This document shows, piece after piece, positions 1 to 26,490 of a stretch of 36,715 bases of DNA (positions are counted from its first letter, which is position 1; the number at the start of each line of letters is the position of its first letter). This DNA is from Chloroflexota bacterium (GTDB taxonomy: Bacteria; Chloroflexota; FW602-bin22; JACPRP01), in assembly GCA_016210495.1 (NCBI GenBank), contig JACQUC010000207.1:1-36715 (forward strand). Direction: 5' to 3'. The notes under the pieces were generated by a model. It made no database searches. It was not told where the DNA came from and saw only the letters and a list, made by a program, of their open reading frames with translations. The position numbers and the translations under genes were made by a program.

Positions 1-146
1 CCAGGATCGCGCAGCACCTCCCCGAACTTGTACCCGGCCTGGCGGATGGCGAAAGCCGGCGCAGCAGGTACCACCGGGATGCGGTCGGGCACACCTAGTG
101 ACACAGCAGTCATAACCCTCTCGTAAGGGCTCATCTCAGCAACCAT
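1..146 (-). CDS. UroD-type methyltransferase, N-terminal part (cut by window edge)
   Basis: Translating the minus strand from the ATG at 146 gives 48 residues that match the N-terminus of the other UroD/MtaA-type methyltransferases in this window: an 'MSPYERVMTAVSLGVPDRIP' segment, then 'AGYKFGEVLRDP', which parallels 'AGYKFAECYFDV' in the gene at 19628. A purine-rich ribosome binding site (GGAGGAGAG) lies upstream. The gene starts 31 bases after the stop of the corrinoid protein gene and is probably in the same operon. In this family the protein is a TIM barrel that moves a methyl group to or from a corrinoid protein using a zinc-activated thiol or substrate. The zinc ligands would lie beyond the edge, so activity cannot be judged. 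This is the sixth member of the family here. Confidence 0.8.
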   Translation of the reverse strand, partial: MVAEMSPYERVMTAVSLGVPDRIPVVPAAPAFAIRQAGYKFGEVLRDP

Positions 147-177
147 GCCCCGCTCTCCTCCTGTCCCTCCTGAATAT

Positions 178-822
178 TCAGCCGGCTCCCGTCAACCGCT
201 GGACGATGTTTACTGCTTCGACTGCGTTCCGCCCGACTGCGTCCGCCCCGACGTATGCCTTCACTGTCTCGTCGACCGGTGCGCCGCCGACGACGATGTA
301 TCGTCCTGCGCGCAGCCCTCGCGCCTCGAGCGCCGCGATGGTTTCACGCATGCTGTCGAAGGACTGTGTCAGCAGCGCGCTCATTCCAACGAACTGAGGT
401 TGGTGGCTTTCAACGGCGGACACAAAACGCTCTTTCGGCACATCCACGCCGAGGTCGACGACCTCAAATCCAGCGGCGGAGAGCATGGTCGTGACGATGT
501 TCTTGCCCAGGTCGTGGATATCACCCTTAACCGTGCCTATGACAACTTTGCCGAGCTTGCGGTCATCACGATTAGCGGCCTCAAGCAGTGGCCCAAGGAA
601 TGCCATCATCTGCTTGAAGATGTTCGCTCCCAGTAGCAGTTCAGGCAGGAAGTACTCCTCCCTTTCATATCTCTCCCCGACGGCTTCCAGTCCGCGCCGA
701 CACTCCTCGACAACACTTAAAGGATCCTTGCCAGTCTCCACTGCTGCTGCGACTTCGCGCAACGCGGTTTTTTCGTCAAGCTCCACAAAGGCGTTGAACA
801 GAGCAGATGTCATCTCGTTCAT
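178..822 (-). CDS. Corrinoid (B12-binding) methyl-carrier protein, MtaC/MttC type
   Basis: 214 residues with the two-part layout of methyltransferase corrinoid proteins. A helical cap (about residues 1-88) is followed by a Rossmann-type B12 domain (about 90-212). The cobalamin signature is present: D101-x-H103-x-x-G106 in 'VKGDIHDLGKN', then 'GMSALL', then 'VVGGAPV'. His103 would be the lower axial ligand of cobalt. The protein carries a methyl group between a substrate-specific methyltransferase and an acceptor methyltransferase in the cytoplasm. Its ATG overlaps the TGA of the molybdopterin oxidoreductase gene by four bases (ATGA), so translation is probably coupled. A UroD-type methyltransferase gene follows after 31 bases. 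Assignment to the family is firm; the methyl donor is unknown. Confidence 0.92.
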   Translation of the reverse strand: MNEMTSALFNAFVELDEKTALREVAAAVETGKDPLSVVEECRRGLEAVGERYEREEYFLPELLLGANIFKQMMAFLGPLLEAANRDDRKLGKVVIGTVKGDIHDLGKNIVTTMLSAAGFEVVDLGVDVPKERFVSAVESHQPQFVGMSALLTQSFDSMRETIAALEARGLRAGRYIVVGGAPVDETVKAYVGADAVGRNAVEAVNIVQRLTGAG

Positions 823-2987
823 CCTCCCCTTTCAACCTCGCATAGAAGCGCTTTGAACACGGGGAAGCCCGAAATCGGATCGCGGTTGTCCGGGTCCGTG
901 AGGTAATTGGTATTGGCCTCGCGCCAGGGCTTCGCGTGCAGCGGGCTTCCACCGCCAACGTTGACCTCTACAGCTCCGGGCATCACGGCATCCGTGACCT
1001 TGGCGAAAAACGTCACTTGCCCCCTCGGAGATCTTACGACGGCACGATCCCCATCCCTAATGCCTCGGGCTCGTGCGTCTAACGGGTTGATGAGTACCTG
1101 TGGCTCGGGCTGCAGCTTCAACAAACTCGGAATGTTAAGGTGTTGTGAACGGAATGCCGACTGAGTCCTGGCGCCCGTATTGAGCACGAGAGGAAACTGT
1201 TTGGCCAGCTCCGGATCCGCCAGCGGTCCCTCCGTCGGCTCGGTGTAGACCGGCAGGGCGTCATAGCCATGTTCTGCCAGCATGCTCGAGGCTAGCTCGA
1301 CCCTACCCGATGGTGTCTCAAACCCGGGCCTTCGATCCCCTCTCAGCAGGCCGGTTTCGTATTTCCTGTACTCCTCGGGCTTGCCGAAGGCGAGCCCCTG
1401 AGGATTGCGGCGCAGCTCGTCCAGGCTCACCGGGTGATCGCGAAGCACGAACTCGACCATTTCCTCCTCGTTTCGGGGATAAACGTCCCCGTAGCCCAGC
1501 CTTTGGGCGAGCTCGGCAAGGATATTGTAATCGCTACGGGCTTCCCCGATGGGCTCGATCACCCTCTGTCGCAACTGGACGTAGTTCCGATGCCGCTGAT
1601 AGCTGAAGTTCTCGTACTGGGTGGTGGCCGGCAGCACAAAATCGGCGTACGGGGCGTCGACCGTCATAAAGCGGTCGATCACCACCAGGAGGTCGAGCGC
1701 CGCCAGGCACCGCTTCCAAAGGTCAGGGTCCGGGTAGCCGGTGATGATCGACGCGCCGCCGATGATCAACGCCTTTATCGGATAGGGATCACCCTCGAGT
1801 ACGGCGCGAGGGAGCTCCATGAAGTGAGCCCCCTTGGTGAGCTTGCAGAAAAGCGGGTACTTTTCGAAGCCAATCGGCTTGGGGTTCTCCGGCGGCAAAA
1901 CATCGGTGCGATTGTAAGGGCTCTTCACTTTCGCGCTCAGCACGATGCCGCCGGGCACGTCGAGGTTGCCCGTGATCGCGTAAAGGACGATGACTGCTCG
2001 GATGTTCTGAACGCCGCTGTTGGTATACTCGAGGCCGGTGTACATAGACAACGTCGCGTGCTTCGCGGCGGCAATCGCCCTGGCCGTCTCCGCAATCACT
2101 TGCGCGGGCACCCAGGTTATGCGCTCCACCTTCTCCGGAGGGAACTCCTGCACGTAGGCGCGCAACTGGTCAAACCCGTGCGTCCACTTCTCGACGAACT
2201 CCCTGTCGTAAATACCTTCGTTGATGATCACGTTGAGCATTCCGAGGGCCAGGGCGCCGTCGGTTCCGGACCTAACTGGTATCCACTTGTGAGCACTAGC
2301 GGCTATCTCGCTGCGCATGTGGTCGATCACGATGACCCTGGCACCACGCTTCTTCGCCTCCATAATCCGCCTCATAGCCATCGGCGGAGAATCTGTGGCG
2401 GGGTTCGCCCCCCACACCACTATCACATTGGCGTTAGCGTAATCGGGCCGGGTCGTGCCCATGCTCGCCCCCAGGGTAGGGATACCAGCCAGGAGGCCGT
2501 AAGACACGAAACAAAGCGAGCTGCAGCCGGCGTTATTGGGCGAGCCGAAGGGAAAGATAATGCTCTTGGGGCTCTGGTTCACCAGGCCCGGCGGGGCGAA
2601 AGGCTCGATCAAAGACACGTCGAACAGGCCTCGCCCGATGTAGCTCATCACCGCTTCTGGGCCGACCGAGCGCTTGATCTCCTGAAGCTTATCGACGATC
2701 TTTTCGAACGCCTCGTCCCAGCTCACGCGCTGGAAACGCCCCTCGCCCTTGGCGCCCACCCTGGCCAGCGGGTACTGCAAACGATCCGGCGAATGGACGA
2801 TGCCCTTGGAATGGGCGCCCCGGACGCAGACGATGCCCATGGGATGCTCTTTGATGGGCATCACCCGCTCGATCTTCCCGCCGACAACCTCGACGTGTAC
2901 GCCGCAACCGCCCGGGCAGATGCCGCAGACGCTGGTGACCACCTTCTTGGGATTGCTGTCTGTTCCTTGCGCTCGCGCGCCAGCCAT
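819..2987 (-). CDS. Molybdopterin (bis-MGD) oxidoreductase with 4Fe-4S domain
   Basis: 722 residues from the ATG at 2987, which has GGGGAGG seven bases upstream. A GTG 15 bases further upstream lies within that ribosome binding site and is less likely. The N-terminus has C-x2-C-x3-C ('CGICPGGC', C21, C24, C28) and a fourth Cys at 54 ('GIVCVRGAH'), as in 4Fe-4S proteins of the DMSO reductase/formate dehydrogenase superfamily. The segment 'FGSPNNAGCSSLCF' (about 147-160) lies where the metal-ligating residue is expected; Cys155 or Cys159 is a candidate. The C-terminal molydopterin dinucleotide-binding domain is complete. No Tat or Sec signal is seen, so it is probably cytoplasmic. No Fe-S electron-transfer subunit or membrane anchor adjoins it. 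It is the penultimate complete gene of the leftward operon and is coupled to the corrinoid protein gene. It might oxidise formate or a demethylated product, but the substrate is not known. Confidence 0.9.
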   Translation of the reverse strand: MAGARAQGTDSNPKKVVTSVCGICPGGCGVHVEVVGGKIERVMPIKEHPMGIVCVRGAHSKGIVHSPDRLQYPLARVGAKGEGRFQRVSWDEAFEKIVDKLQEIKRSVGPEAVMSYIGRGLFDVSLIEPFAPPGLVNQSPKSIIFPFGSPNNAGCSSLCFVSYGLLAGIPTLGASMGTTRPDYANANVIVVWGANPATDSPPMAMRRIMEAKKRGARVIVIDHMRSEIAASAHKWIPVRSGTDGALALGMLNVIINEGIYDREFVEKWTHGFDQLRAYVQEFPPEKVERITWVPAQVIAETARAIAAAKHATLSMYTGLEYTNSGVQNIRAVIVLYAITGNLDVPGGIVLSAKVKSPYNRTDVLPPENPKPIGFEKYPLFCKLTKGAHFMELPRAVLEGDPYPIKALIIGGASIITGYPDPDLWKRCLAALDLLVVIDRFMTVDAPYADFVLPATTQYENFSYQRHRNYVQLRQRVIEPIGEARSDYNILAELAQRLGYGDVYPRNEEEMVEFVLRDHPVSLDELRRNPQGLAFGKPEEYRKYETGLLRGDRRPGFETPSGRVELASSMLAEHGYDALPVYTEPTEGPLADPELAKQFPLVLNTGARTQSAFRSQHLNIPSLLKLQPEPQVLINPLDARARGIRDGDRAVVRSPRGQVTFFAKVTDAVMPGAVEVNVGGGSPLHAKPWREANTNYLTDPDNRDPISGFPVFKALLCEVERGG

Positions 2988-3039
2988 AGCCTTCCTCCCC
3001 ACGGAGCCATCAATTCCGGTCAGTGCCCCGCCCCACCCT

Positions 3040-3086: not shown

Positions 3087-3806
3087 TCACGCGCCCAGGT
3101 AGTGCCGCTTGACTTCCGGGTTCTCGCGGAGCGCACTGGCCGCCCCGTGCAGCACCACTTTTCCGGTCTGCATCACGAAAGCGCGATCCGCGATCCCCAA
3201 CGCGGCCCTGGCGTTTTGCTCGACCAGCAAAATGGAGATGCCCCGCTCCCGCAGCTCTACGATGATTCTGAAGATATCTTTCATCACCAGTGGCGCGAGT
3301 CCCAACGACGGTTCGTCGAGCAGCAGCAGCTTCGGCTTCGACATGAGCGCTCGCCCGATCGCCAGCATCTGCTGCTCTCCCCCGCTGAGCGTCGAGGCGC
3401 GCTGTTTCTGTCTCTCGGAAAGCCGAGGGAATGTATGGAAGACCTTTTCCAGATCCTCTGCCAGCTCGGCCTTCTTCAGGCGCCCGTAATGGCTGTACGC
3501 TCCCAGCAGCAGGTTGTCCAGCACCGTGAGCGAAGAGAACAGTTGCCTGCCCTCAGGCACCTGGCACACGCCCGCAGATACGATCCAGTCCGGACTCGCG
3601 CTGGTGATATCTCGACCAGCGTACACGATCGTCCCGGTCGATGGCCTGATTATCCCAGATATAGTCTTCATCAGCGTCGACTTGCCCGCCCCGTTGGCTC
3701 CAATGATGCACGCGATCTCCCCCTCGCGCAAGTCAAGAGAGACGCCCTCGATCGCTTTGATGTGGCCGTAATATGTGCTGACCTCTCGAACCTCAAGCAT
3801 TGGCAT
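3087..3806 (-). CDS. livF: LIV-type ABC transporter ATPase, LivF family
   Basis: 239 residues. Walker A is 'GANGAGKST' (36-44), the Q-loop region 'VPEGRQ' follows, the signature is 'LSGGEQQ' (140-146), and Walker B is 'LLLLDEPSLGL' (160-170). The D-loop and 'LLVEQN' H-loop region are those of the short LivF class. It powers import with LivG, LivH and LivM at the inner face of the membrane. An alternative start at the second Met (3800) has slightly better spacing to a GAGG. It lies 13 bases after livM and ends the transporter block. The solute cannot be told from the ATPase; the surrounding methyltransferase genes suggest a methylated compound and not a branched-chain amino acid. Confidence 0.95.
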   Translation of the reverse strand: MPMLEVREVSTYYGHIKAIEGVSLDLREGEIACIIGANGAGKSTLMKTISGIIRPSTGTIVYAGRDITSASPDWIVSAGVCQVPEGRQLFSSLTVLDNLLLGAYSHYGRLKKAELAEDLEKVFHTFPRLSERQKQRASTLSGGEQQMLAIGRALMSKPKLLLLDEPSLGLAPLVMKDIFRIIVELRERGISILLVEQNARAALGIADRAFVMQTGKVVLHGAASALRENPEVKRHYLGA

Positions 3807-3819: not shown

Positions 3820-4815
3820 CTATTGCGCCGGAACCTTGGTGGGCTGATTGCTCCCCAGCCTCGAAAGTAACGCGAGTATCATGCCCGCGAGCCCCTTGGG
3901 CATAAACATTAAGATCAAGATGAAAACGATACCATAGACTACCACCTTGTAGTCGTTGAAGCCCTGGAGCAGATCGGGCAAGCTTTTCATAATAATGACG
4001 CCCAGGATGGCACCCCACAACGTGCGGCGCCCTCCCAGGAACAAAACTAGAATCAGCTCGATGGAGAGCGTTAGGCCGTAGTCTGCCGGCGAAAGGAAGC
4101 GAAAGTAGTGCGCATACAGAAACCCGGCAATTCCCGTGAATACGCCGGAGACCAGGAAGATCTGCAGCTTGTACTTTGCTACGTTGATGCCCATCATCTC
4201 GGCGGCCAGCTCGTCCCCGCTCAGGGCCAGCGCCGCCCGCCCGACCCTGGATCGCACGATGCCAAAGCTTGCGAGCAGCACGAGGAGCAGCGTACCCCAA
4301 ACGAGGAAGTAATACTTGGTGTCGTTGTCGAAAGCGAAATCGCCCACAGTTATCTTGGGGACATCCATCAGGCCGGAGCTGCCTCCCGTGATCTCGGGAA
4401 GGGCGATGAGGGCGGCCGGAATCAGCACCCCAAACGCCATCGTGCCGATCGCGAGGTAATAACCCCTAAGTCGTAACGTTGGGACACCTATGGACAGAGC
4501 GGCTACAAGTGTTGTAAGCAAGGTCAGCGGAAAGGTAACCCATAGGGGCCAGCCCAACCGAACCGAGGCTATGCCGGTTGTGTAGGCGCCGACTGCGAAA
4601 AAGGCGTTCTGGCCAAGCGATAGCTGATCGCTGTATCCGACGAGCAGGTCCAAAGCGACCGCGACGATGGAGTAGATGCCCACAAGCATGACGAGATTCA
4701 TATGGTAGGACCCCTCCAGCGCAAACGGGAGCAAGACAAGCCCTGCCACCAGTGGCAAAAAAGCAAGATACCTACCGGTGGGACCATTGAGTATCTGAGG
4801 CGCTCTCAGTTTCAT
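3820..4815 (-). CDS. livM: LIV-type ABC transporter permease, LivM family
   Basis: 331 residues from the ATG at 4815, which has GGTAAAGAG upstream inside the livH stop region. A longer reading from 4842 would overlap livH by 23 bases. The protein has about eight to ten hydrophobic segments. The LivM hallmark 'GYSDQLSLGQNAFFAVGAY' lies near residue 60, and the conserved cytoplasmic 'ALSGDELAAEMMGINVAKYK' coupling segment, which contacts the ATPases, lies in the second half. Length is normal for the family. It forms the translocation channel with LivH. Confidence 0.94.
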   Translation of the reverse strand: MKLRAPQILNGPTGRYLAFLPLVAGLVLLPFALEGSYHMNLVMLVGIYSIVAVALDLLVGYSDQLSLGQNAFFAVGAYTTGIASVRLGWPLWVTFPLTLLTTLVAALSIGVPTLRLRGYYLAIGTMAFGVLIPAALIALPEITGGSSGLMDVPKITVGDFAFDNDTKYYFLVWGTLLLVLLASFGIVRSRVGRAALALSGDELAAEMMGINVAKYKLQIFLVSGVFTGIAGFLYAHYFRFLSPADYGLTLSIELILVLFLGGRRTLWGAILGVIIMKSLPDLLQGFNDYKVVVYGIVFILILMFMPKGLAGMILALLSRLGSNQPTKVPAQ

Positions 4816-4819
4816 TCGG

Positions 4820-5683
4820 CTACTCTTTACCAAGCAGGCCATTGGGCCGCACCAGCAAAATCACCAACAGTACCACCAGCGCTATGGCGTCCTTAAAAAG
4901 CGCTGAGATCGTGGCCGCGGCGTAAGACTCGAACAGTCCCAGCAGCAACCCTCCCAGTACGGCTCCGGGCAAACTGCTCAGGCCACCAAAGATCGAGGCA
5001 GATATGCCTTTGAGCAGCAGAAGCGTCCCGTCCTCGTAGTTGACCATTGTGATGGGCGCGATCAAGATGCCGGCAACGGCACCCAACGCAGCGCTCATGG
5101 CGAACGACAGGACGACCATACGCTGAACGTTGATTCCGACGAGACTGGCCGCTACGCGGTTCTCGGCCGAGGCCTTCAGCGCCTTGCCGAAATAGGTACG
5201 CTCGAAGAAGAACCAGACGCCGGTTAGCAAAAGGGCAGTAGCCAGCAAGACGACCACGGCCTGGGGGACGATGGTAGCGCCTCCGATCGACAGGGGCGGG
5301 CCTTCGACCAGTGCCGGTAGGGCGAGGTTCTGGGTGCCCCATATCAACAGCGCCACGCCTTTTATCAGAAACGAGCCGGCCATCGTCACCAGCAGCACCA
5401 CGAAGACAGGCGCACGATAGAGTGGCCTGATGAGCACCCGCTCCGTCACAACTCCGACGATAGTGACCAAAACAACCGCCACCAGAAAGGCCACGGCTAC
5501 GGGGATCTTGGCTACGAGGAGGAGCGAGATCATAAGAAACGCGGCAAGCACAACCAGCTCGCCATGAGCAAAATTGAAGAGCGCGCTCGACTGGTAGATT
5601 ATGGTGAGGCCAAGCGCCACCAGGGCATAGATACTGCCCTGCGTGAGCCCCGAGAAAAAGAATTGCAAATATAGGCTAAGCAT
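4820..5683 (-). CDS. livH: LIV-type ABC transporter permease, LivH family
   Basis: 287 residues, strongly hydrophobic, with about eight membrane segments. 'GSIYALVALGLTIIYQSSALFNFAHGE' (given here only as a hallmark of LivH; residues about 16-42) and the coupling helix 'ASAENRVAASLVGINVQRM' are both present. GGGAG precedes the ATG at 5683 by about ten bases. It is 30 bases downstream of livG and its stop lies just before the livM start. Partner of LivM in the importer. Confidence 0.94.
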   Translation of the reverse strand: MLSLYLQFFFSGLTQGSIYALVALGLTIIYQSSALFNFAHGELVVLAAFLMISLLLVAKIPVAVAFLVAVVLVTIVGVVTERVLIRPLYRAPVFVVLLVTMAGSFLIKGVALLIWGTQNLALPALVEGPPLSIGGATIVPQAVVVLLATALLLTGVWFFFERTYFGKALKASAENRVAASLVGINVQRMVVLSFAMSAALGAVAGILIAPITMVNYEDGTLLLLKGISASIFGGLSSLPGAVLGGLLLGLFESYAAATISALFKDAIALVVLLVILLVRPNGLLGKE

Positions 5684-5713: not shown

Positions 5714-6472
5714 TCACCCGAGATATGCCTGGATAACGTCAGGGTTACTCTGTATCTGTATCGGTGGCCCCTCGGCGATCTTCTCTCCATAGTTCAGGAC
5801 CACGATTTCGTCAGAGACGCTCATAACCAACTCCATGTTGTGCTCGACCAAAAGTATGGTGATGCCGGCGTCACGGATCCGACGCAGTAACGTTGCCAGG
5901 CGCAGAGTCTCGGCGTCATTCAAGCCCGCGGCGGGCTCGTCCACAAGGAGTAGATCTGGACCCGACGCCAAACATCGGGCAATCTCAAGCAGCCTTTGCT
6001 GGCCAAAGGGCAGCGCTCCGGCCAGCTCGTTCGCCATTCCGGTCAGTCCCACGAACGCCAGTTTTTGCCAGCTCGACTCGCGAAACGAGCGCTCCTCCGC
6101 TCTCACGCGCGGCAGGTGGAGCATGGAATCAAACAACCCGGCTCGCCCCCTGCGGTGCAAGCCCACCATCACGTTCTCCAGTACCGTCAGCTCCTGGAAG
6201 AGTCGCACGATCTGAAAGGTCCTGGCCAGGCCCCGCTCCACGATCGCAGTGGTCTTGAAACCCGTCACGTCGGCGCCCTTGAATTTGACCGTTCCCGCGC
6301 TTGGACGGTACACGCCTGTAATGGCGTTGAAGACAGTGGTCTTGCCGGCACCGTTCGGTCCGATGATGGCCTTGATTTGGCCACGCTTGACACCAAAGGA
6401 GACGTCCGACACGGCTCGCAGGCCGCCAAAAAAGACGTTAAGCTTGTCGACTTCTAGCAGCAAGTTGTCCAA
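5714..6472 (-). CDS. livG: LIV-type ABC transporter ATPase, LivG family
   Basis: 252 residues if started at the TTG at 6472, which follows GGTGAGGAG by four bases. The frame stays open further upstream (to 6613), but that part overlaps the preceding methyltransferase and lacks family similarity. A GTG at 6484 overlapping the upstream TGA is the other candidate. Walker A is 'GPNGAGKTT', the LivG-type insert 'ARTFQIVRLFQELTVLENV' follows, the signature is 'LPFGQQRLLEIARCLA' (LSGGQ replaced by LPFGQ, as is usual in LivG), and Walker B is 'LLLVDEPAAGL'. It partners with LivF. Confidence 0.93.
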   Translation of the reverse strand: MDNLLLEVDKLNVFFGGLRAVSDVSFGVKRGQIKAIIGPNGAGKTTVFNAITGVYRPSAGTVKFKGADVTGFKTTAIVERGLARTFQIVRLFQELTVLENVMVGLHRRGRAGLFDSMLHLPRVRAEERSFRESSWQKLAFVGLTGMANELAGALPFGQQRLLEIARCLASGPDLLLVDEPAAGLNDAETLRLATLLRRIRDAGITILLVEHNMELVMSVSDEIVVLNYGEKIAEGPPIQIQSNPDVIQAYLG

Positions 6473-6480
6473 ACGTCTCC

Positions 6481-7506
6481 TCACCTTGTAGTGTATGCAA
6501 TATTGCGGGCAGCCTTGGCCAGAGCCATCACGTTGTCCCAAGGAGCGTCGCGCGGAATACCGCAATCGGCGCTCAAGATGAATCCGCCCCCTTTGCCGGC
6601 GTCTTCTATGCACTTCGCCGCCTCGTCGCCAACTCTCTCAGGCGGGCCCTTCAGGATGCCCACAGAGCCGACATTTCCCATCAGACAAACCCTGTCGCCA
6701 TAGAGGGTCTTAAGCGCAGAAAGATCGGCGTATTCCGAAACATGCCACACGTCGGCGCCTTCGTCGGCCACGATATCAAACCGATCGTTCCAGTTTCCGC
6801 AGGTATGCAGGGCGGTTCTGACGCCGCTCGCCTTGAGCTGGTGGAATATCCGGCGGCTGTACGGATGAGCGAACTGCTCGTAGTGCTTGCGTGATATGGA
6901 GAGCCCGCCGGCCACCGAGTTTCCCATCCAAATCACGTCGGCTCCAGCTTCAGCCAGAGCCAGCGCGTGCTCGGCGTCCCTTTCCGTAGCGAACTCGAGG
7001 ATCGCGGTGACGAAATCCGGGTCAGAGATCATGTTCTTGTAGAGATTCTCCACGCCTCGTAGCTGACAAGCCGTGTTGAAGGGCGCCTGCACCACGGCAA
7101 CCACCGGGACCTCCTTGCCGACAGCCTTCTTCAGCTTCCGCACGCGTCTCAAGCGACGCTGAGCCTCTCCCTGCGCCATCACGTCGACGGACCGCATTCT
7201 TTCCAGGTCCTCACGACACCTGATGGGATGCTCGAGAATCTGGGGAGCGTCGTCTTCGAGGAACCTCACTTCTGCCCCCAGCGCAAAAGCCACGATGTCG
7301 ACGCCCCCGACGGCCCAGACGGCATCCGATCCGAAGTCGTCGAGGCACTTCAGCTCCGCTCGAATGTACCTCTCGTCGTCGGCCAAGCCCTCGCCAACCT
7401 TGCAGCCAGCGTACTTGATACCGCAGTAAACGGTAAACAGGACAACCGGCACTCTGTCGGTCTCTCTAAGCTCCAGCGCCGCTGCCACGCGCTCCGCCGA
7501 TGTCAT
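6481..7506 (-). CDS. UroD/MtaA-type corrinoid methyltransferase inside the liv operon
   Basis: 341 residues from the ATG at 7506, chosen because it aligns with the start of the paralogs ('EMTSAERVAAALELRETDRV'). The frame is open to 7563. The zinc site of the MtaA/MtbA class is intact: H234-x-C236 in 'ALHTCGNW' and C315 in 'ILSADCGIP'. This family transfers methyl groups between a corrinoid protein and a thiol or substrate. True uroporphyrinogen decarboxylases lack this H-x-C...C set. The gene sits between the LIV binding lipoprotein and livG, and its TGA overlaps a possible GTG start of livG. That position ties the transporter to methyl transfer chemistry. The substrate is unknown. Confidence 0.9.
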   Translation of the reverse strand: MTSAERVAAALELRETDRVPVVLFTVYCGIKYAGCKVGEGLADDERYIRAELKCLDDFGSDAVWAVGGVDIVAFALGAEVRFLEDDAPQILEHPIRCREDLERMRSVDVMAQGEAQRRLRRVRKLKKAVGKEVPVVAVVQAPFNTACQLRGVENLYKNMISDPDFVTAILEFATERDAEHALALAEAGADVIWMGNSVAGGLSISRKHYEQFAHPYSRRIFHQLKASGVRTALHTCGNWNDRFDIVADEGADVWHVSEYADLSALKTLYGDRVCLMGNVGSVGILKGPPERVGDEAAKCIEDAGKGGGFILSADCGIPRDAPWDNVMALAKAARNIAYTTR

Positions 7507-7578
7507 CTCCGCTTTCTTACCCGCTGTACACCTCCCCCTGGCTAGTGCATGATCAGCCAGCACTTGCGGCGAGGTATT

Positions 7579-9197: not shown

Positions 9198-9221
9198 TAG
9201 GTTTTCTTTGAAATGTCGAAA

Positions 9222-15467: not shown

Positions 15468-15532
15468 CCAGGCGGTTTGGAAAGGAATAGACTGCGAAGC
15501 GGACCGCCAAACTAGATGCATCCTGATCGTCT

Positions 15533-15570
15533 GGTAGGGGTCCGCCTAAGGCGGACGAACCGCCCCTACC
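15533..15570. repeat. Nested palindromic repeat
   Basis: Outer arms GGTAGGGG (15533-15540) and CCCCTACC (15563-15570) enclose TCCGCC-TAA-GGCGGA (15541-15555). The same core occurs at 3043-3061 and 34870-34884. It lies in the 177-base gap between the FAD enzyme and the next lipoprotein gene; nothing else was recognised in that gap except the ribosome binding site of the latter. Confidence 0.8.
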
Positions 15571-15644
15571 ATGGACACATCTTGTGTCGAACAATTCAGG
15601 TCCAGTTGTTGGCCTCGGAAACAAAAAAGAAGGAGGTTTTGGTG

Positions 15645-16883: not shown

Positions 16884-16914
16884 TGGACAACTCGCAAAAC
16901 AACAAGGGGTGCAT

Positions 16915-19481: not shown

Positions 19482-19627
19482 CAGCTTACATTATCTTGCG
19501 GCAAGACGAACAGAATGGTCAAAGATGTGGTAGAATGCAGGGCGGACGCCATTTGGCCCGGATGTGATATCTGGCCTACCGCGTCGCCCGAGAACTTGAC
19601 GGCGCTTGAAGACAGAAGGGGTTCCGT

Positions 19628-20671
19628 ATGGCAAGAAGGGAAGAAATGACGCCGCTAGAACGCGTCCTGGCAGCGGCTGAGCTGAGGGAGGCAGACCGCG
19701 TGCCGGTGCTGCCAAGCACGAAGGCTTGGGGAATCAAGAACGCCGGTTACAAATTCGCTGAGTGCTACTTCGACGTCGACCTGTACGTGGACACTCAGAT
19801 TCGTTGCCAGAGAGAGTTGGGCGACGATGGCGTGTACGACATCTTCTCACTGAACATCGAGGAAGATTTGGGCGCCCAGGTCATCCACCGCGAAGACGAC
19901 CCGCCAAACATCTCGGAGCCTTTGCTGGGATCGCTCGACGATTTGAACAAGTTGGTCCCATACGACGCCAAGACGGGTGCCTGCGCACTCAGAGCCCACG
20001 AAATGATTCGGAAGCTCAAAGACCGCACCGAAGGGCGCGTTGCCGTACTGGGCATGGTGCATTCACCTTTCGAGATCGCCGCCACCCTGTACGGCGCGAA
20101 GAACCTTTACACCGACTTCATCCGCAATCCATCGATGGCGAGGGAGCTGATGGACTTCTGCGTCCCGATGGCCACGTCATACGCCGAAGCTCTGGTGGAA
20201 GCGGGAGCGGATATTGTTAGGACGGTGAACCCCTCCGCTAACACCTCGTGCATTTCGCGCAGGCATTACCAGGAGTTCGCCTTTCCGCCGATGCAGAAGT
20301 TATTTGCTCGCTTGAAGGCCAGGGGAATCAAGATATTGTTTCACATCTGTGGAGACTGGCGGGATCGGCTGGACCTGGTGTGCGAGCTGGGCGCCGACAT
20401 TCTGCACGTGGACAGGATCGATCTTGCCCGCTTCAAGCAGGAGTATGGCCGGGAAGTGTGCGTGATGGGCAACGTGAGGACCGTGGAGACGATGCTGTAT
20501 GGTACGCCGGCAGATGTTGAGAGAGAGGCCCTCGACTGTATCGAGCAGGCGGCTCAAGGAGGTGGTTTCATACTGAGCGCCGATTGCCTGGTGCCACGGG
20601 ATACGCCGAAGGAGAACCTGCAGGCACTGGTAGACGTCGCGATCACGAGTGAGTATCCTCGCCAATTTTGA
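19628..20671 (+). CDS. UroD/MtaA-type corrinoid methyltransferase
   Basis: 347 residues from the ATG at 19628 (AAGGGG upstream). The zinc site is intact: H239-x-C241 in 'LFHICGDWRDR' and C320 in 'ILSADCLVP'. 'CVMGNVRTVETMLYGTPADV' (278-297) is typical of the family. The C-terminal half, from about residue 182, is almost identical to the gene at 22155, in protein and in DNA, while the N-terminal half is only about half identical. The substrate-facing part may therefore differ while the methyl-transfer part is kept uniform. Neighbours are a molybdopterin enzyme upstream and a binding lipoprotein downstream. Confidence 0.92.
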   Translation: MARREEMTPLERVLAAAELREADRVPVLPSTKAWGIKNAGYKFAECYFDVDLYVDTQIRCQRELGDDGVYDIFSLNIEEDLGAQVIHREDDPPNISEPLLGSLDDLNKLVPYDAKTGACALRAHEMIRKLKDRTEGRVAVLGMVHSPFEIAATLYGAKNLYTDFIRNPSMARELMDFCVPMATSYAEALVEAGADIVRTVNPSANTSCISRRHYQEFAFPPMQKLFARLKARGIKILFHICGDWRDRLDLVCELGADILHVDRIDLARFKQEYGREVCVMGNVRTVETMLYGTPADVEREALDCIEQAAQGGGFILSADCLVPRDTPKENLQALVDVAITSEYPRQF

Positions 20672-20789
20672 TCGTTCCCAAGCAGCAACCGCATCAGACT
20701 GAATTTGCCTTGATTCACAGCCGGAAGGCTGAAGTGGTTGGTTGGAAAGATCTGCTGATACCTTTGTCACTACGGATATAAGCTGTAGT

Positions 20790-20808
20790 GCAGGGGCTTG
20801 TCCCCTGC
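20790..20808. repeat. Short palindrome before the third lipoprotein gene
   Basis: GCAGGGG-CTTGT-CCCCTGC, a perfect seven-base stem, followed by further G-rich sequence. It lies in the 211-base gap between the methyltransferase and the lipoprotein gene. It could be a REP-like element or an attenuator; no T-run follows. Confidence 0.6.
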
Positions 20809-20882
20809 TGGGGAGGGGTGGGGAAACCTGCCCCACAAGAAAATGTGACACTTCCAAAGTAATGAGGTTAGGAGGGGTCGCC

Positions 20883-22067
20883 ATGAGACTTGGCCACAAC
20901 TGGATGACTGGTTTCATCGCAACGCTCGTGTATTTGGTCGTTCTGGCGAGTTGTGCTGCGCCAGCACAGCCGAGCCCGACGCCCACGAAGTCGCCTGCGG
21001 CGCAGCCTACCAGGCCAGCCGAAAAGGAGGCCGCGAAGGCCCTTGGAACACCCGCCGAGAAGCCCGCGGAGAAAACCGGTTCCAAAGCGCCCGTGAAGGC
21101 CGCTATGCCTGGCCCGCTGAGTCCAGCGGTCAAGGTCAGGGTGGGCGATTTGGCTACGACCTCGGATGCGCCGACCTACGTAGCGCTCGAGAAAGGCTTT
21201 TTCAAGGAGCAGGGCATCGATCTGGAGCTTACGTCGTTCGATCAATCGGCGCAGGTGATCCCAGCCCTATCGTCGGGCCAGTTGGAAGTTGCCGGCGCAG
21301 GCATCACCGTAGCCCTCTACAACGCGGTCGCGCGCGGCATCGGCGTCAGGGCCGTGGCCGATCGTGCCAGGAACTCGTCTGGACACGAATTCAACACATT
21401 GGCCGTTCGGAAAGACCTGGCAGACCGCGTCAAGGACTTCAAGGACCTGAAAGGATTGAAAGTGGCCCTTGTATCCAAGAACGGACCGGGCTACGTTCAG
21501 ATCGCCAAAGCCGTGGCAAAGGGAGGGCTTTCCCTTGCCGATATCGACATCGTCACGATGCCGTTCCCGGACATGATGTCTGCCTTCGCCAACAAGGCCA
21601 TCGATGCCGCCATCGCTTCGGAACCACTGGCGACCCAAGGAGCCGAGCGTGGGCTGTTTGTCAACTGGAAGACGGTGCATCCCGATTTCTATCCCAACCA
21701 CCAGGTTGGCGTATTGATGTACGGTCCTCAGTTCATCGAGCGCCAACCGGAGGCCGCGAAGCGTTTCATGGTAGCTTACATCAAAGGAATCCGAGCTTAC
21801 CTGGACGGGTTCGACAAAAACGTGGGGCTCGACGAGATCATCAAGATACTTACCGCATATACCCCGCTGAAGGATGCTTCCGTCTACCGCAAAGTTCGCG
21901 GCCCCGGCTTCGACCGCAACGGGTACATCTTCACGCAGCATCTGATAGATGACCAGGACTTCTTCGTCAGCCAGGGCATAATGAAGCCTGAAGAGAGAGC
22001 GGACATGAAGAAGTTGATCGATGACTCATATGTCGAATACGCCTTGAGCATTCTCGGCAAGGAGTGA
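20883..22067 (+). CDS. NMT1/SsuA-type substrate-binding lipoprotein (orphan), third copy
   Basis: 394 residues from the ATG at 20883, which has TTAGGAGGGG upstream; the frame is open to 20742 but the extra part has no signal character. The lipoprotein signal ends in 'VVLASC' (Cys24). A Pro/Ala/Lys linker runs to about residue 80. The binding domain begins 'VKVRVGDLATTSDAPTYVAL'. It is more distant from the other two and lacks their 'GFIKKLYQ' tail. It lies between two near-duplicate methyltransferase genes, which suggests it captures their methylated substrate, though no permease is adjacent. Confidence 0.88.
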   Translation: MRLGHNWMTGFIATLVYLVVLASCAAPAQPSPTPTKSPAAQPTRPAEKEAAKALGTPAEKPAEKTGSKAPVKAAMPGPLSPAVKVRVGDLATTSDAPTYVALEKGFFKEQGIDLELTSFDQSAQVIPALSSGQLEVAGAGITVALYNAVARGIGVRAVADRARNSSGHEFNTLAVRKDLADRVKDFKDLKGLKVALVSKNGPGYVQIAKAVAKGGLSLADIDIVTMPFPDMMSAFANKAIDAAIASEPLATQGAERGLFVNWKTVHPDFYPNHQVGVLMYGPQFIERQPEAAKRFMVAYIKGIRAYLDGFDKNVGLDEIIKILTAYTPLKDASVYRKVRGPGFDRNGYIFTQHLIDDQDFFVSQGIMKPEERADMKKLIDDSYVEYALSILGKE

Positions 22068-22154
22068 CTGACCGAATTCGCTCAGCCTCTGGCGCCCGTC
22101 CGGGCGCAGAGCAGGCCCGCGTTCGGATAGAACGTTGATGTGTGGAGCACGCAG

Positions 22155-23183
22155 GTGCCAAGAACTGAGGAGATGACGTCCCTGGAGCGCATTTTGGCAG
22201 CGGCCGACCTGAAGGAAGTAGATCGGGTACCGGCGCTGCCCCAGCACAATCTCTGCGGTATGAAATGGGCCGGCCACAGTTACGCCGAATGTTATCACGA
22301 CGTGGACAAATACGTGCATGCACAGCTTCGAGCGTGGCGCGAAGTCGGTGGCGACGGCGTGTTCGACTTCCATATGTACAATATCGAGGAATCGCTCGGT
22401 GCCCAGGTCGTACTCCACGATTCCTTGGCCGTTCGCGATCCGGTGATACGCACGCGCGACGACCTGAACAGGCTTCTACCATATGATGGTAAGAGCAGTG
22501 GTCGCTCTCCGGCAGTGCAAAATATCATCCGGAAGTTGAAGCAAAGCACTAATGCCCGCGTGGCCGTGATCGGCTTTGTTCATTCACCCTTCGAAGTCGC
22601 CATTTCACTGCGCGGGTTCAGGAACTTCTACCTCGATCTCGTCCGCGATCCCGCCTTCGCGAAGCAACTGTCGGATTTTCTCGTCCCGATGGCCGCGTCG
22701 TACGCCGAAGCTCTGGTGGAGGCGGGAGCGGATATCATCAGGACGGTGAATCCCTCGGCCAACGCCTCGTGCATCTCGCGCAAGCATTACCAGGAGTTCG
22801 CCTTTCCGCCGATGCAGAAGTTCTTCGCTCGCCTGAAGGCCAGGGGCATCAAGATACTGTTCCACATCTGTGGAGACTGGCGGGATCGGCTGGACCTGGT
22901 CTGCGCGCTGGGCGCCGACATACTGCACGTGGACAGGATCGATCTTGCCCGCTTCAAGCAGGAGTATGGCCGGAAGGTGTGTGTAATGGGCAACGTGAGG
23001 ACTGTGGAGACGATGCTGTATGGTACGCCGGCAGATGTGGAGAGGAAAGCCCTCGACTGCATCAAGCAGGCGGCTGAAGGCGGTGGTTTCATCTTGAGTG
23101 CGAACTGTCAACTGCCGCCCGATACGCCGCAGGAAAACGTGAAAGCAATGGTGGATGCGGCAAGGTTCTTTTGGCATGACTAG
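22155..23183 (+). CDS. UroD/MtaA-type corrinoid methyltransferase
   Basis: 342 residues from the GTG at 22155 (GGAG eight bases upstream), which matches the start of the paralog at 19628. An earlier GTG at 22140 has no ribosome binding site. The zinc ligands are H237, C239 ('LFHICGDW') and C318 ('ILSANC'). The C-terminal half is nearly identical to that of the gene at 19628. It ends 26 bases before the corrinoid protein gene, which is the likely partner. Confidence 0.92.
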   Translation: MPRTEEMTSLERILAAADLKEVDRVPALPQHNLCGMKWAGHSYAECYHDVDKYVHAQLRAWREVGGDGVFDFHMYNIEESLGAQVVLHDSLAVRDPVIRTRDDLNRLLPYDGKSSGRSPAVQNIIRKLKQSTNARVAVIGFVHSPFEVAISLRGFRNFYLDLVRDPAFAKQLSDFLVPMAASYAEALVEAGADIIRTVNPSANASCISRKHYQEFAFPPMQKFFARLKARGIKILFHICGDWRDRLDLVCALGADILHVDRIDLARFKQEYGRKVCVMGNVRTVETMLYGTPADVERKALDCIKQAAEGGGFILSANCQLPPDTPQENVKAMVDAARFFWHD

Positions 23184-23209
23184 AAATCGCTGAGCGTGGA
23201 GGAAGAAGA

Positions 23210-23896
23210 ATGACAGCCGAACAGGTTCGAGTTCCCGCGGAGGAAACCAAGAGCGCGATTCTGGAGGATCTCAAACGCGCGGTGATCGATTACAACGAGG
23301 ATCTGTCGCGGGAAGCCAGCAACCGGGCATTGGCCGAGGGGATCAACGCCTACGAGGCCATCATGCAAGGGCTGGCCGCCGGCATGGAGGTGGTCGGGCG
23401 CCTCTTCGAGGACCAGGAGTACTTCGTGCCCGAGGTGCTGATGTGCGCCGACGCACTTTACGCGGGGCTCGACGTGCTGCGTCCTCACATCAGCCAGGAA
23501 GATAGCCAGAGGATCAAGGGGCAGGTGGTCATCGGCGTGGTGCAGGGAGACGTACACGACATCGGCAAGAACCTGGTGAAGATGATGTTCGAGATCGCCG
23601 GCTTCACCGTGCACGATCTGGGCGTCGACGTTCCGCTGGACAAGTTCGTCGAGGAGCAGATGAGAATCGACGCCGACATCCTGTGTCTATCGGCAATGAT
23701 GACGACGACGATGATGGGCATGAAGAAAGTCATCGAAGCCGTCAAAGCCAAGAATCCCAACACCAGGGTGCTGGTGGGCGGCGCACCCCTGACCCCCGAG
23801 ATCGCCGCCAAGATGGGCGCCGACGGCTACTCCGACAACGCCAATAACGCCGTGCTCGAAGCCATACGGATGGTTAGCTCGCTGAGAACGCTCTAG
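23210..23896 (+). CDS. Corrinoid (B12-binding) methyl-carrier protein, MtaC/MttC type
   Basis: 228 residues, ATG at 23210 with TGGAGGAAG upstream. The helical cap spans about 15-100 and the B12-binding domain about 104-226. The signature is D114-x-H116-x-x-G119 ('VVQGDVHDIGKN'), 'LSAMMT' at 159-164, and 'VLVGGAPL' at 186-193. His116 is the expected cobalt ligand. It is clearly different in sequence from the protein at 178, so the two probably serve different methyltransferases. It is flanked on both sides by UroD-type methyltransferase genes. Confidence 0.94.
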   Translation: MTAEQVRVPAEETKSAILEDLKRAVIDYNEDLSREASNRALAEGINAYEAIMQGLAAGMEVVGRLFEDQEYFVPEVLMCADALYAGLDVLRPHISQEDSQRIKGQVVIGVVQGDVHDIGKNLVKMMFEIAGFTVHDLGVDVPLDKFVEEQMRIDADILCLSAMMTTTMMGMKKVIEAVKAKNPNTRVLVGGAPLTPEIAAKMGADGYSDNANNAVLEAIRMVSSLRTL

Positions 23897-23954
23897 GACG
23901 GACCGGAGCCTGCAACACGAACGGCCGAGTCTTGGAGATGTGGAGGGTGGCGAA

Positions 23955-25004
23955 GTGAGTCGCGCGGAACTGATGACGCCGATGGAGCGCTTGTCTGCCA
24001 CGGTCGCGGGCCTGGAATGTGACAGAGTGCCCGTACTGCCGAACATCAGGCTTTTCGGCATCAGGTACTGCGGGTTGAAGTTTTCCGATTGTCTCAGGGA
24101 CCCAACCCTCTACGTGCGCTCGCAGGTGAGATGTCTGGAGGAGTTCGGCTGCGATGGCGCGTGGGATATCAGTATGGATGGCGTCAGCGAGGCGCTGGGA
24201 GCGAAGCTCGTGGAATATGACGACGACCCTCCCGCTCCGGTCGTGCACCCCGTTCGGGGCATAGAGGATGTTGAAAGGTTGCGCGAGGTAAACATCCTCG
24301 AAAGCCGGAGGGTTCGGTTTCTGTTGGGAGTCGTCACGGAGCTTAAGGCAGCCGTGGGACCGGACGTTCCGGTCGTAGCGTGGGCACCGGCCCCGCTGAG
24401 GACAGCCTGCATGCTAAGGGGGCTCGAGGCAGCATACCGGGATATGATACGCCAGCCACAGTTTGCCGAGGTCTTGGTCGACGCCTGTGTCCAGCCCAGC
24501 ATCCAATACGCCGAGGCGTTGGCCGGGGCTGGGGCGGACTTCATCTGGGTGTCGAACCCCGTGGCCGACGCCACGGCTATTTCCCGCAAGCACTACGAGC
24601 AGCTCAGCGTTCCGTTCTCGAGGCGGATGTTTTCGGCGCTCCGCGGCAAGGGCATCAAGGTGATGTACCATTTTTATGGCACTTCTAGTGATCGCCTCGA
24701 CCTGGTTGCGTCGCAGGGTCCCGACGTATTGCACGGCGCCGACATGGACCTTGGCGAGGCCAAGAAGCTGTATGGCAGTCGCTACACGCTGATGGGCAAC
24801 GTTCGGGCGATTACCACAATGTTTCAGGGTACGCCGGCTGAGGTGGAGAAGGAGTCGATCCGGTGTATCAGAGAGGCTGGCCACGGAGGCAGGTACATTC
24901 TCAGCGCGGGAGCGGGCCTTGCCCCGGCAAACCCGCCTGAGAACCTGGCCGCAATGGTCGCCGCGGCCAAAAAGCACGGCACTTATCCGTTGGCTTTACA
25001 TTGA
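23955..25004 (+). CDS. UroD-type methyltransferase homolog lacking the zinc ligands
   Basis: 349 residues from the GTG at 23955 (GGAGGG seven bases upstream); an earlier GTG at 23940 is too close to its GGAG. The fold and length match the family: 'LMTPMERLSATVAGLECDRV' at the start and 'LMGNVRAITTMFQGTPAEV' near the end. The zinc motif is changed: the H-x-C site reads 'YHFYG' (His239, Tyr241 for Cys) and the distal Cys site reads 'ILSAGAGL' (Ala320 for Cys). It therefore should not bind zinc in the MtaA manner. The reading frame is intact and there is no other sign of decay. It may use a different chemistry, act in a complex, or bind methyl donors without thiol activation. Confidence 0.88.
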   Translation: MSRAELMTPMERLSATVAGLECDRVPVLPNIRLFGIRYCGLKFSDCLRDPTLYVRSQVRCLEEFGCDGAWDISMDGVSEALGAKLVEYDDDPPAPVVHPVRGIEDVERLREVNILESRRVRFLLGVVTELKAAVGPDVPVVAWAPAPLRTACMLRGLEAAYRDMIRQPQFAEVLVDACVQPSIQYAEALAGAGADFIWVSNPVADATAISRKHYEQLSVPFSRRMFSALRGKGIKVMYHFYGTSSDRLDLVASQGPDVLHGADMDLGEAKKLYGSRYTLMGNVRAITTMFQGTPAEVEKESIRCIREAGHGGRYILSAGAGLAPANPPENLAAMVAAAKKHGTYPLALH

Positions 25005-25030
25005 GGAAACATCCGGAGAAGTAGTGCGCA

Positions 25031-25438
25031 ATGAACGTGACATTGGAATTGCTCGAAGATGGCAGGATTATCGGAAAGGCGCGTCAACATACGGTCGAGG
25101 TAGGCTTGCCAGCTCCGGGGTCAGCTGGGGGTGGTGGAATAACCGCCCCCGAGTTGCTGTTGCTGGCATTAGGCTGTTGCAAGCTAGGGAACATTCGTAG
25201 CTATGCCGCGCAGAGGGGTATTTCTCTCAAAGACGTTCGTTTTGATCTGGAGGGTGAGGTGGCGGAAGCGCCGTCTCGAGTTGCCAGAATCAGCATCGTC
25301 GCGAGGATAGGAGACGACTTAAAGGATCTCCGGTTGGAAACCCTGGAAGCTGTCGCCAATCGTTGCAAGATCCACAACACCCTCCGCGAGACCCCAGAGA
25401 TAGAATTCAGACTGCTAACCGGGGCCGTGGAAGAATGA
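25031..25438 (+). CDS. OsmC/Ohr-family protein
   Basis: 135 residues, ATG at 25031 with GGAGAAG about ten bases upstream. OsmC hallmarks are present: 'TAPELLLLALGCCK' with Cys49/Cys50, and 'ANRCKIHNTL' with Cys112. Cys50 and Cys112 align with the reactive pair of thiol-dependent peroxidases. OsmC-fold proteins reduce organic hydroperoxides or act in thiol chemistry. Its TGA overlaps the ATG of the next methyltransferase gene (ATGA), so the two are translated together. That points to a role in the methyl-transfer system, for example protection of oxygen-sensitive Co(I), but this is inference. Confidence 0.88.
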   Translation: MNVTLELLEDGRIIGKARQHTVEVGLPAPGSAGGGGITAPELLLLALGCCKLGNIRSYAAQRGISLKDVRFDLEGEVAEAPSRVARISIVARIGDDLKDLRLETLEAVANRCKIHNTLRETPEIEFRLLTGAVEE

Positions 25439-26490
25439 TTCCGAACCGAGGGCCCTTGGACACGACAGAAATGACCCGTTACGAGCGGGTCATGGCCGCG
25501 CTGTCGCTGGGCGAGCCGGATGTCACCCCAGTCGTGCACACGTGGAACGCGTTTACCTATCGGCACGCGGGCTACACGTTCTCGGAGTGCAACACAGACG
25601 GACGCAAACACGTCGAGGCCCAGTTGAAATGCCTGGAGGACTTTGGCGTCGACGCCGTATGGGCACCGACCGCCACCGGCCCCCTCTGCGAAGCCTGTGG
25701 CGCCGACGTCAGATACCTCGACGATAACCCTCCCGTGAACGGCCCGGGCGTCGTGAAAACGGATGAAGACATCGCGAGCCTGGGCTTCACGAGCGTCCGC
25801 GATGCAGGCAGGATCCCCTGGGTTCTCGAGACCACACGCAATCTGAGGAAGGGCGTGGGCCGCGAGATCCCCATTTTCGCCGTCGTGCCCTCGCCGCACA
25901 CCATCGCGGACGCGTTGCGCGGGACGCAGGAGCTTTTCAAGGATTTCGTCCGGCGGCCGGCGCTGGTGGAAGCCTTGATAGACAAGTGCGTCGCCCCGGC
26001 CGTGGAGTTCGCCGACCTGGTTGCTGAGGCGGGGGCCAACGTCGCGTGGGTGCCCGAGCCCCTGTGCAGCGGCACGTGCATCTCGCGGATGCACTACGTG
26101 CGCTTCGTCTACCCGTACACGCGACGGCTGTTCCTGGCCCTGAGAGGGCAGGGTATCAAGTCAGTTCACCACGTCTGCGGCGACTGGCACGACAGGCTCG
26201 ACCTGTCCCACGATGGCCCGACCGCGCTGCACCTGGCCGCCGAGGCCGACCTGGCCGAGGTGAAAGCGACGTACGGTAGCAAGGTCGCCTTGATGGGGAA
26301 CATAAGGTCCGTTGATCTGCTCTTCGGCACGCCCGAGGCAGTCGCGGGGGAAACCCGCGACTGCCTCGCCAGGGGAGCCTCAGGCGGCGGCTTCATTCTG
26401 AGTTGCGATTGCAGTCTGCCGCCCGGCTCGCCGAAAGAGAACGTGCTAGCGGTTACCACAGTGGCAAGGTCACGGCCGGGGGGTCGGTGA
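25435..26490 (+). CDS. UroD/MtaA-type corrinoid methyltransferase
   Basis: 351 residues from the ATG at 25435, which overlaps the OsmC stop by four bases; the frame is open upstream only within OsmC. The zinc site is intact: H246-x-C248 in 'VHHVCGDWHDR' and C326 in 'ILSCDCSLPP', with an extra Cys324 beside it. The N-terminus 'EMTRYERVMAALSLGEPDVT' matches the partial gene at the left edge ('EMSPYERVMTAVSLGVPDRI') more closely than the other paralogs. Last gene of the rightward cluster. Confidence 0.92.
   Translation: MIPNRGPLDTTEMTRYERVMAALSLGEPDVTPVVHTWNAFTYRHAGYTFSECNTDGRKHVEAQLKCLEDFGVDAVWAPTATGPLCEACGADVRYLDDNPPVNGPGVVKTDEDIASLGFTSVRDAGRIPWVLETTRNLRKGVGREIPIFAVVPSPHTIADALRGTQELFKDFVRRPALVEALIDKCVAPAVEFADLVAEAGANVAWVPEPLCSGTCISRMHYVRFVYPYTRRLFLALRGQGIKSVHHVCGDWHDRLDLSHDGPTALHLAAEADLAEVKATYGSKVALMGNIRSVDLLFGTPEAVAGETRDCLARGASGGGFILSCDCSLPPGSPKENVLAVTTVARSRPGGR

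Follow-up and report, generated by a model that had tools for sequence, protein, structure and literature searches.

The stretch of DNA analysed here, referred to below as the window, is the whole of contig JACQUC010000207.1 (36,715 bases, G+C 58-68%, no tRNA genes) from the Chloroflexota bacterium assembly GCA_016210495.1. Positions 1..26490 form an island of genes for UroD-type (uroporphyrinogen decarboxylase-fold) proteins, corrinoid proteins, importers and molybdenum and flavin enzymes, which is probably a regulated catabolic island for the UroD-fold/corrinoid demethylation of imported methyl-bearing compounds; the operon that follows was kept outside it. Pfam was run on 30 open reading frames (ORFs) that tile the window, and the rest of the 146 ORFs of at least 80 amino acids mostly overlap these 30. 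The gene content that an earlier note had read from the same DNA was recovered, namely six UroD genes (five complete, and one of which only the first 48 residues lie in the window), two corrinoid proteins that both carry DxHxxG, genes of a leucine/isoleucine/valine-type (LIV) transporter (LivF, LivM, LivH, LivG and an interrupted LivK), two bis-molybdopterin guanine dinucleotide (bis-MGD) proteins, a molybdenum (Mo) hydroxylase and a flavoprotein, in two arms that diverge from a single FadR-type regulator with GntR and FCD domains. The genes of the island are as follows:

1..146, reverse strand: UroD1, 5' fragment of 48 residues cut at the contig edge, the start of the sixth UroD gene
178..822, reverse: corrinoid protein A, B12-binding and B12-binding_2 domains (Pfam), motif DIHDLG
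819..3002, reverse: bis-MGD protein 1 (727 aa), with its metal-ligating Cys in alignment; shares 4 nt with the gene of corrinoid protein A
3087..3806, reverse: LivF-type ATP-binding cassette (ABC) ATPase (Pfam)
3820..4842, reverse: LivM-type permease (family by Pfam, M or H assigned by order)
4820..5683, reverse: LivH-type permease (family by Pfam, M or H assigned by order)
5714..6613 (ORF limits; true start probably past the UroD2 end, ~6471), reverse: LivG-type ABC ATPase (Pfam)
6481..7563, reverse: UroD2, complete, zinc motif HxC...C kept (Pfam, alignment)
7937..8926, reverse: LivK-type binding protein with an in-frame TGA; the same frame runs on to ~7680
9471..10196, forward strand: GntR/FCD (FadR-type) regulator; likely start 9471, ORF opens at 9399
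10230..12620, forward: large subunit of a Mo hydroxylase of the xanthine dehydrogenase family; no partner subunit among the scanned ORFs
12708..13709, forward: NMT1/SsuA-type binding protein 1
13740..15467, forward: flavoprotein resembling fumarate, succinate and adenylylsulfate (APS) reductase flavoproteins
15516..16883, forward: NMT1-type binding protein 2
16909..19326, forward: bis-MGD protein 2 (805 aa), with its metal-ligating Cys in alignment
19628..20671, forward: UroD3, complete, zinc motif kept; P0143 (71%) is its closest relative outside the window
20742..22067, forward: NMT1/SsuA-type binding protein 3
22140..23183, forward: UroD4, complete, zinc motif kept; codons 182-317 nearly identical to UroD3
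23210..23896, forward: corrinoid protein B, motif DVHDIG
23940..25004, forward: UroD5, complete, both zinc-site cysteines lost (Tyr246, Ala325)
25031..25438, forward: OsmC-like protein (Pfam), absent from the earlier note
25363..26490 (limits of the ORF, which overlaps OsmC; the gene probably begins further inside), forward: UroD6, complete, zinc motif kept

Since the window is the entire contig, UroD1 cannot be completed from it. Gaps within the arms are mostly below 100 nt, the exceptions being the 301 nt upstream of UroD3 and the LivK-UroD2 gap, which is wide because of the in-frame stop in LivK.

The UroD proteins are better read as UroD-fold corrinoid methyltransferases than as the haem-pathway decarboxylase HemE, as the earlier note had proposed, and both NCBIfam scores and two trees support this. 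For the four complete copies scanned (all except UroD4), the MtaA/CmuA model TIGR01463 gives 132.4-183.5 bits against a cut-off of 235.4 and the HemE model TIGR01464 gives 53.0-79.9 bits against 302.95; HemE function is rejected because the latter scores are far below cut-off and the HemE rows lie outside the UroD clade. The nearest solved structure for UroD4 and UroD2, the two copies searched, is the methylcobalamin:coenzyme M methyltransferase 4ay7. In a first tree of 71 rows, which omits those of the proteins P0123-P0134 and P0143-P0175 that have 280 residues or fewer and has CmuA trimmed to 380 residues, all five complete UroDs fall in one 36-row clade (support 100/98). HemE, CmuA and Methanosarcina MtaA lie outside it, as do the three UroDs from a UroD-corrinoid-RACo cluster of Acetoanaerobium. 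A second tree of 64 rows, with 19 of the same proteins and new-locus ORFs longer than 480 residues trimmed to their last 420, places all five in a 24-row clade (97/94) together with UroDs from the loci L123 and L124 (phylum of a Bacillota genome), L004 and L005 (Synergistaceae) and L137 and L140 (phylum of G007), with the HemE rows again outside. Within the clade the window UroDs are not one group in either tree (3 changes). Its named members are annotated only as uroporphyrinogen decarboxylase (family) or MtaA/CmuA family proteins, and the nearest named relative of UroD4, P0143 (62%), is labelled Chloroflexi. Furthermore, the H-x-C...C positions that align with those of 4ay7, which we take to be its zinc ligands, are kept in four of the five complete copies (UroD2, UroD3, UroD4 and UroD6).

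Gene conversion links two of these copies. UroD3 at 20162-20569 and UroD4 at 22683-23090 show 92% DNA identity inside this 0.4-kb tract and 61% outside it, and the log-likelihood gain for the tract is 65.0 versus at most 14.6 in 200 codon shuffles, which ignore uneven constraint along the protein. Third-position agreement is 76-92% in the five 25-codon blocks within the tract and 32-60% in the other blocks. Compared segment by segment, P0143 matches UroD3 evenly (69, 73 and 67%) and UroD4 unevenly (51, 74 and 60%), so that UroD3 was probably the donor and UroD4 probably received the tract by gene conversion.

With respect to gene neighbourhoods in other genomes, 19 of 20 UroD places were fetched, from 17 genomes; a profile search of genome contigs with the five-UroD alignment yielded, among the matches listed (13 loci), none titled Chloroflexota. 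We observe a corrinoid gene in five of the 19 neighbourhoods (L123, L124, L137, L140 and L141), RACo in two (L124 and L141), an NMT1-type binding-protein match in four (L124, L125, L126 and L141) and LIV-type permease plus ATPase matches in two (L132 and L131), while single ABC-ATPase matches to LivF/LivG in L124, L125, L128, L140 and L141 were not counted as a LIV transporter because they are generic. The UroD stands alone in L127, L130, L134 and L136; flavoprotein matches (28-29%) occur in L138 and L139, and weak GntR matches in L129, L133 and L135. Inner-clade UroDs are found within this set only in L123, L124, L137 and L140, with L132 an outer relative and L138, L139, L131 and L141 elsewhere in the tree. 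Six inner-clade loci are known outside the window, and in three of them (L123, L137 and L140) a corrinoid gene directly adjoins the UroD. In L124 the inner-clade UroD adjoins RACo, with the corrinoid gene 3.6 kb off in the same direction, and the locus holds three UroDs in all (one inner-clade), an NMT1 protein and a rhodanese-domain protein. On the 3.5-Mb contig of L123, UroD and corrinoid genes adjoin a pterin-binding methyltransferase (PF00809), and CoA-transferases and acid transporters, one of them for short-chain fatty acids, lie nearby on the same strand; a carboxyltransferase is also found near them. L137 and L140 carry genes for binding proteins of the tripartite ATP-independent periplasmic (TRAP) type, and L137 also has a DctM gene.

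Methyl transfer by a UroD and a corrinoid protein is already known in kind, and the island is less unique than the earlier note held. The window UroDs are like MtaA/MtbA in their nearest solved structure and zinc motif positions, but those enzymes have, in the available text of PMC10418091, a coenzyme M-methylating role in methanogens, and the four scanned window UroDs stay below the MtaA/CmuA cut-off. The O-demethylases Mtv, Odm and Vdm and the archaeal Mto, as described in the accessible parts of PMC8630106 and PMC13222342, share with the window a UroD-superfamily methyltransferase I (MT I) and a corrinoid protein; the Mto operon there carries two MT I paralogues and, unlike the window, in which neither was found, a methyltransferase II (MT II) and an activator. 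From this scheme, in which MT I and a corrinoid protein work with an MT II and an activator, the window has MT I-like and corrinoid genes, and the relative L123 has its pterin-binding methyltransferase beside the UroD.

The type 1 mlp clusters of PMC10418091 suggest a different use of the same parts. As far as the available text goes, they consist of several MtaA-like UroDs and a corrinoid protein, lack a tetrahydrofolate methylase within 20 kb, and are proposed to serve methyl-sulfur/methyl-selenium salvage. The window likewise has several such UroDs with corrinoid proteins, and no methyl-folate methyltransferase was seen among its 30 scanned ORFs, on a contig that ends beside UroD1. Were the island to work in this way, its UroDs would shuttle methyl groups between thiols or selenols and the corrinoid without folate, and the NMT1/SsuA-type proteins would import sulfur compounds. 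Binding proteins 1 and 3 do match the SsuA family model, below its cut-off (protein 2 was outside that scan), and the gene content of L124, with its rhodanese-domain protein, is consistent with such a role. If Mlp is taken loosely as MtaA-like UroD, the window also has at least two Mlps plus a corrinoid protein. However, the clusters as defined in that text include Ram/RACo and have their core genes in one direction and at most 2 kb apart, whereas the window has no RACo match and two divergent arms, and it holds LIV transporter, bis-MGD and other Mo/flavin enzyme genes that set it apart from these clusters. By that text, type 1 clusters encode proteins of the Mlp2 and Mlp3 lineages. All five window UroDs branch apart from the three of the one cluster sampled, the Acetoanaerobium cluster (UroD-corrinoid-UroD-RACo-UroD), which we assigned to type 1 by gene content and not from the paper's list. 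The coupling of a clade UroD with a pterin-binding methyltransferase in L123 also argues against salvage, which we regard as an unlikely account of the island, although it overlaps the demethylation reading in the methyl-transfer step.

UroD genes also recur beside bis-MGD genes. The remaining two inner-clade loci, L077 and L078 (Synergistaceae), carry a bis-MGD gene on the strand of the UroD, at a distance of 252 and 1,935 nt, respectively; in L077 genes for a 4Fe-4S protein and a pyridine-nucleotide oxidoreductase come after it, and in L078 the ORFs are similar to those past the L077 gene by size and order alone. L132 carries, in one direction, bis-MGD, UroD, LivK, an RdhA-family protein, LivH, LivM (a two-piece match), LivG and LivF, which are the gene types of the left arm of the window minus the corrinoid protein. 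These loci do not support the earlier view that the mix of redox partners is unlike that of any known methyltransferase operon, since bis-MGD, UroD and LIV genes recur together in the outer relative L132 and bis-MGD and UroD genes in L077 and L078. L138 holds bis-MGD, a 4Fe-4S protein match, TRAP transporter genes, an amidohydrolase, the flavoprotein match and an RdhA-family protein. Short RdhA-family proteins (TIGR02486, over cut-off) thus lie beside UroD and bis-MGD at 6854-8077 in L132 and 6871-8016 in L138, and L001 and L003 have similar but shorter ORFs in the vicinity of UroD and corrinoid genes. In Synergistota, bis-MGD1 matches at E <= 1e-60 occur in 12 of 149 genomes; 10 of 13 such places were fetched with flanks, and four of the 10 have a UroD (L077, L078, L082 and L084). 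L082 and L084 hold clusters of an MtmB-like methyltransferase, corrinoid, UroD and bis-MGD genes, to which L082 adds RACo and L084 adds 4Fe-4S and Pyr_redox proteins. When all 47 UroD matches are pooled, seven have a bis-MGD gene in the locus, four of them within 400 nt on the same strand; the pool mixes UroD-selected and bis-MGD-selected loci and gives no frequency. Scans of viral contigs found no relative, and plasmid searches returned only matches below 60% identity. UroD4 matches at E <= 1e-40 occur in just 3 of 296 genomes from the phylum of G006. UroD-family matches number 39 in G004, 34 in G005 and 29 in G006 (2.2-3.8 Mb; the genomes of L008, L011 and L012).

For both bis-MGD proteins the nearest solved structure by sequence is acetylene hydratase (2e7z), which is also nearest to bis-MGD1 by fold (from a model with a predicted local distance difference test score, pLDDT, of 86.8) and has the same length of 727 aa. 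The four cluster cysteines and the metal-ligating cysteine are kept in both and align with those of the hydratase. The residue after the second cluster Cys, presumably the catalytic Asp of acetylene hydratase, is Pro in bis-MGD1 and Lys in bis-MGD2, and membership of that family is rejected on this replacement; Pro stands at the site in 118 of the 119 listed bis-MGD1 homologues, with a gap in the other. Formate dehydrogenase alpha is the best NCBIfam match of both proteins (331.6 and 283.3 bits against a cut-off of 666.25). Formate dehydrogenases, by what we take to be the rule, have Sec or Cys followed by His at the metal, as in the aligned FdhF; here Phe (bis-MGD1) or Asn (bis-MGD2) follows the metal-ligating Cys, and this family is likewise rejected on these residues and the sub-threshold scores. 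The 119 bis-MGD1 homologues, counted among the matches listed, share 60-79% identity; the nearest named relative, P0005 (76%), is labelled Chloroflexi, followed by Dehalococcoidia at 71% and Betaproteobacteria at 69%. P0035, a bis-MGD1 homologue (68%), and P0143, the UroD4 homologue, both labelled Chloroflexi, each lie on an 85,653-base contig, presumably the same one. The Mo hydroxylase comes closest to 4-hydroxybenzoyl-CoA reductase alpha (structure 1rm6), whose family model gives it 619.9 bits, below the cut-off of 994.55, and no FeS (iron-sulfur) or flavin adenine dinucleotide (FAD) partner for it was found among the 30 scanned ORFs. The flavoprotein matches 42 NCBIfam families, none of the 25 listed at cut-off.

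A variant of the demethylation reading would assign further oxidation of the methyl group to the bis-MGD proteins, acting in a formate-dehydrogenase-like manner, and would make the island part of a one-carbon oxidation unit. The formate dehydrogenase alpha model, although far under cut-off, points this way, as do the redox genes that follow bis-MGD in L077 (and, by ORF size and order, in L078) and the placing of bis-MGD in L082 and L084 within clusters with corrinoid, UroD and MtmB-like genes. Set against this are the Phe and Asn that replace the His of FdhF, acetylene hydratase as the closest structure and the finding of no electron-transfer partner among the scanned window ORFs, and we hold the variant to be improbable. 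It and the salvage reading overlap with demethylation, and the likelihoods we attach to the readings are not meant to add up to one.

The corrinoid activator and the methyl-accepting partner, both reported missing by the earlier note, were sought in the window and in related genomes. RACo had no tblastn match in the whole window, the left end of which is cut, at E <= 1 and no Pfam match in the 30 ORFs; the absence of MtrH or another pterin-binding/tetrahydrofolate methyltransferase (MT II) holds for the 30 Pfam-scanned ORFs of a contig that ends beside UroD1. All but one of 11 related genomes have RACo, usually away from the UroD locus, and the activator therefore usually sits elsewhere; MtrH is present in just five, in a search that covered PF02007 and not PF00809 proteins like that of L123.

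The demethylation reading draws on the corrinoid genes inside both arms, the supported UroD clade, the zinc motif in four of five copies and the recurrence elsewhere of UroD with corrinoid, with bis-MGD and with LIV genes. Several observations weigh on the other side, beginning with the two absences from the window just described and with G1205, the genome of L132, in which RACo had no match (an RdhA-family protein in its cluster may or may not be related to this). A bis-MGD gene occurs in just three of the 19 UroD-selected neighbourhoods (L132, L138 and L139); L138 and L139 are near-identical loci with a UroD outside the window clade, and the L132 UroD lies just outside the clade of the second tree (support 96/36). 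No corrinoid gene was matched in L077, L078 or L132, and no UroD in any of 17 neighbourhoods (4 to 20 kb, one of 4.4 kb) that surround bis-MGD1 homologues of 43-60% identity in the G007 phylum. The cysteines replaced by Tyr246 and Ala325 in UroD5 are both kept in 11 of its 11 nearest other homologues (P0123-P0133), and with LivK interrupted as well, part of the island may be decaying. The model of UroD5 (pLDDT 95) has 4ay8/4ay7 as its best fold match, and the protein need not be dead, because zinc-free UroD-superfamily methyltransferases such as CdmB are known (PMC13222342, in the part available).

Some of these points would fit a patchwork of independent catabolic units lying side by side with no single pathway. 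The flavoprotein, the Mo hydroxylase and three different binding proteins may have no part in what the UroDs do, UroD5 and LivK suggest decay, bis-MGD1 homologues occur without UroD in another phylum, and, for the expectation that these genes stay together, pairs recur but no neighbourhood examined holds the whole island gene set. A patchwork is nevertheless difficult to square with the tight spacing, the two arms around a single regulator, the left-arm gene types found again in L132 and the spread of one-clade UroDs across both arms; we rate it as a doubtful alternative, slightly ahead of salvage. In the literature searched we found no account of UroD, corrinoid, bis-MGD and LIV genes together, a weak negative since subscription journals were mostly outside its coverage.

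For the importers, the description of three orphan binding lipoproteins holds as to three NMT1-type genes, and as to the lipoprotein part for proteins 2 and 3, which a crude motif search flagged; protein 1 and LivK were not flagged by it. The LivK TGA lies at 7937-7939 and the frame then runs on to a normal end, so a frameshift is rejected in favour of an in-frame stop; mutation and assembly error cannot be told apart.

Beyond the island, past an 800-nt gap, one operon at 27291-30054 encodes fumarase-type alpha and beta proteins and a flavoprotein resembling fumarate reductase/aspartate oxidase. A large BTAD/AAA_16 regulator lies at 31172-34789; a similar domain mix recurs in L082 and L084, each time in the first of the large ORFs. 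The segment 35127-36590 holds a camelysin-like protein (Pfam) and then an ORF that by eye looks like a signal peptidase, with no Pfam match. The divergent intergenic region shows a single 11-nt inverted repeat (9222-9247). Promoter- and terminator-like matches within 8900-27400 are not above chance level, and an Rfam scan gave no match at the gathering threshold.

Taken as a demethylation island, the locus would import organic compounds that bear methyl groups, with organic or aromatic acids the likeliest class, and several UroD-fold MT I enzymes would move these groups to the Co(I) cofactor carried by corrinoid proteins A and B. Methyl transfer to the corrinoid is the best reading of these genes and, in this direction, a probable one. 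The methyl group would then pass to a folate- or pterin-linked acceptor by an MT II encoded elsewhere, the activator would be supplied from another locus, and the demethylated product would be handed to the solitary bis-MGD, flavin and Mo-hydroxylase enzymes for redox steps. A methoxylated aromatic acid is a tentative first guess at the substrate. It is possible, at a similarly low level of confidence, that an uncharacterised UroD clade and its corrinoid partners demethylate imported acids and that the product is then converted, for instance dehydroxylated or hydrated, by a solitary bis-MGD enzyme with a Cys metal ligand and with residues that fit neither acetylene hydratase nor formate dehydrogenase, in an anaerobic and undescribed strategy in which UroD paralogues would widen the substrate range, their amino-terminal halves diverging while gene conversion keeps a carboxy-terminal stretch alike.

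If true, this would add a methyl-group-using route in a mostly uncultured lineage, give a function to a supported UroD clade and tie an orphan bis-MGD group to a pathway. A floodplain study states, in the portion of its text available, that all its genomes lacked annotated genes of methyltransferase systems for methoxy, methyl-sulfur or halomethane compounds (PMC11264602), and unrecognised systems like this island could partly explain that lack.

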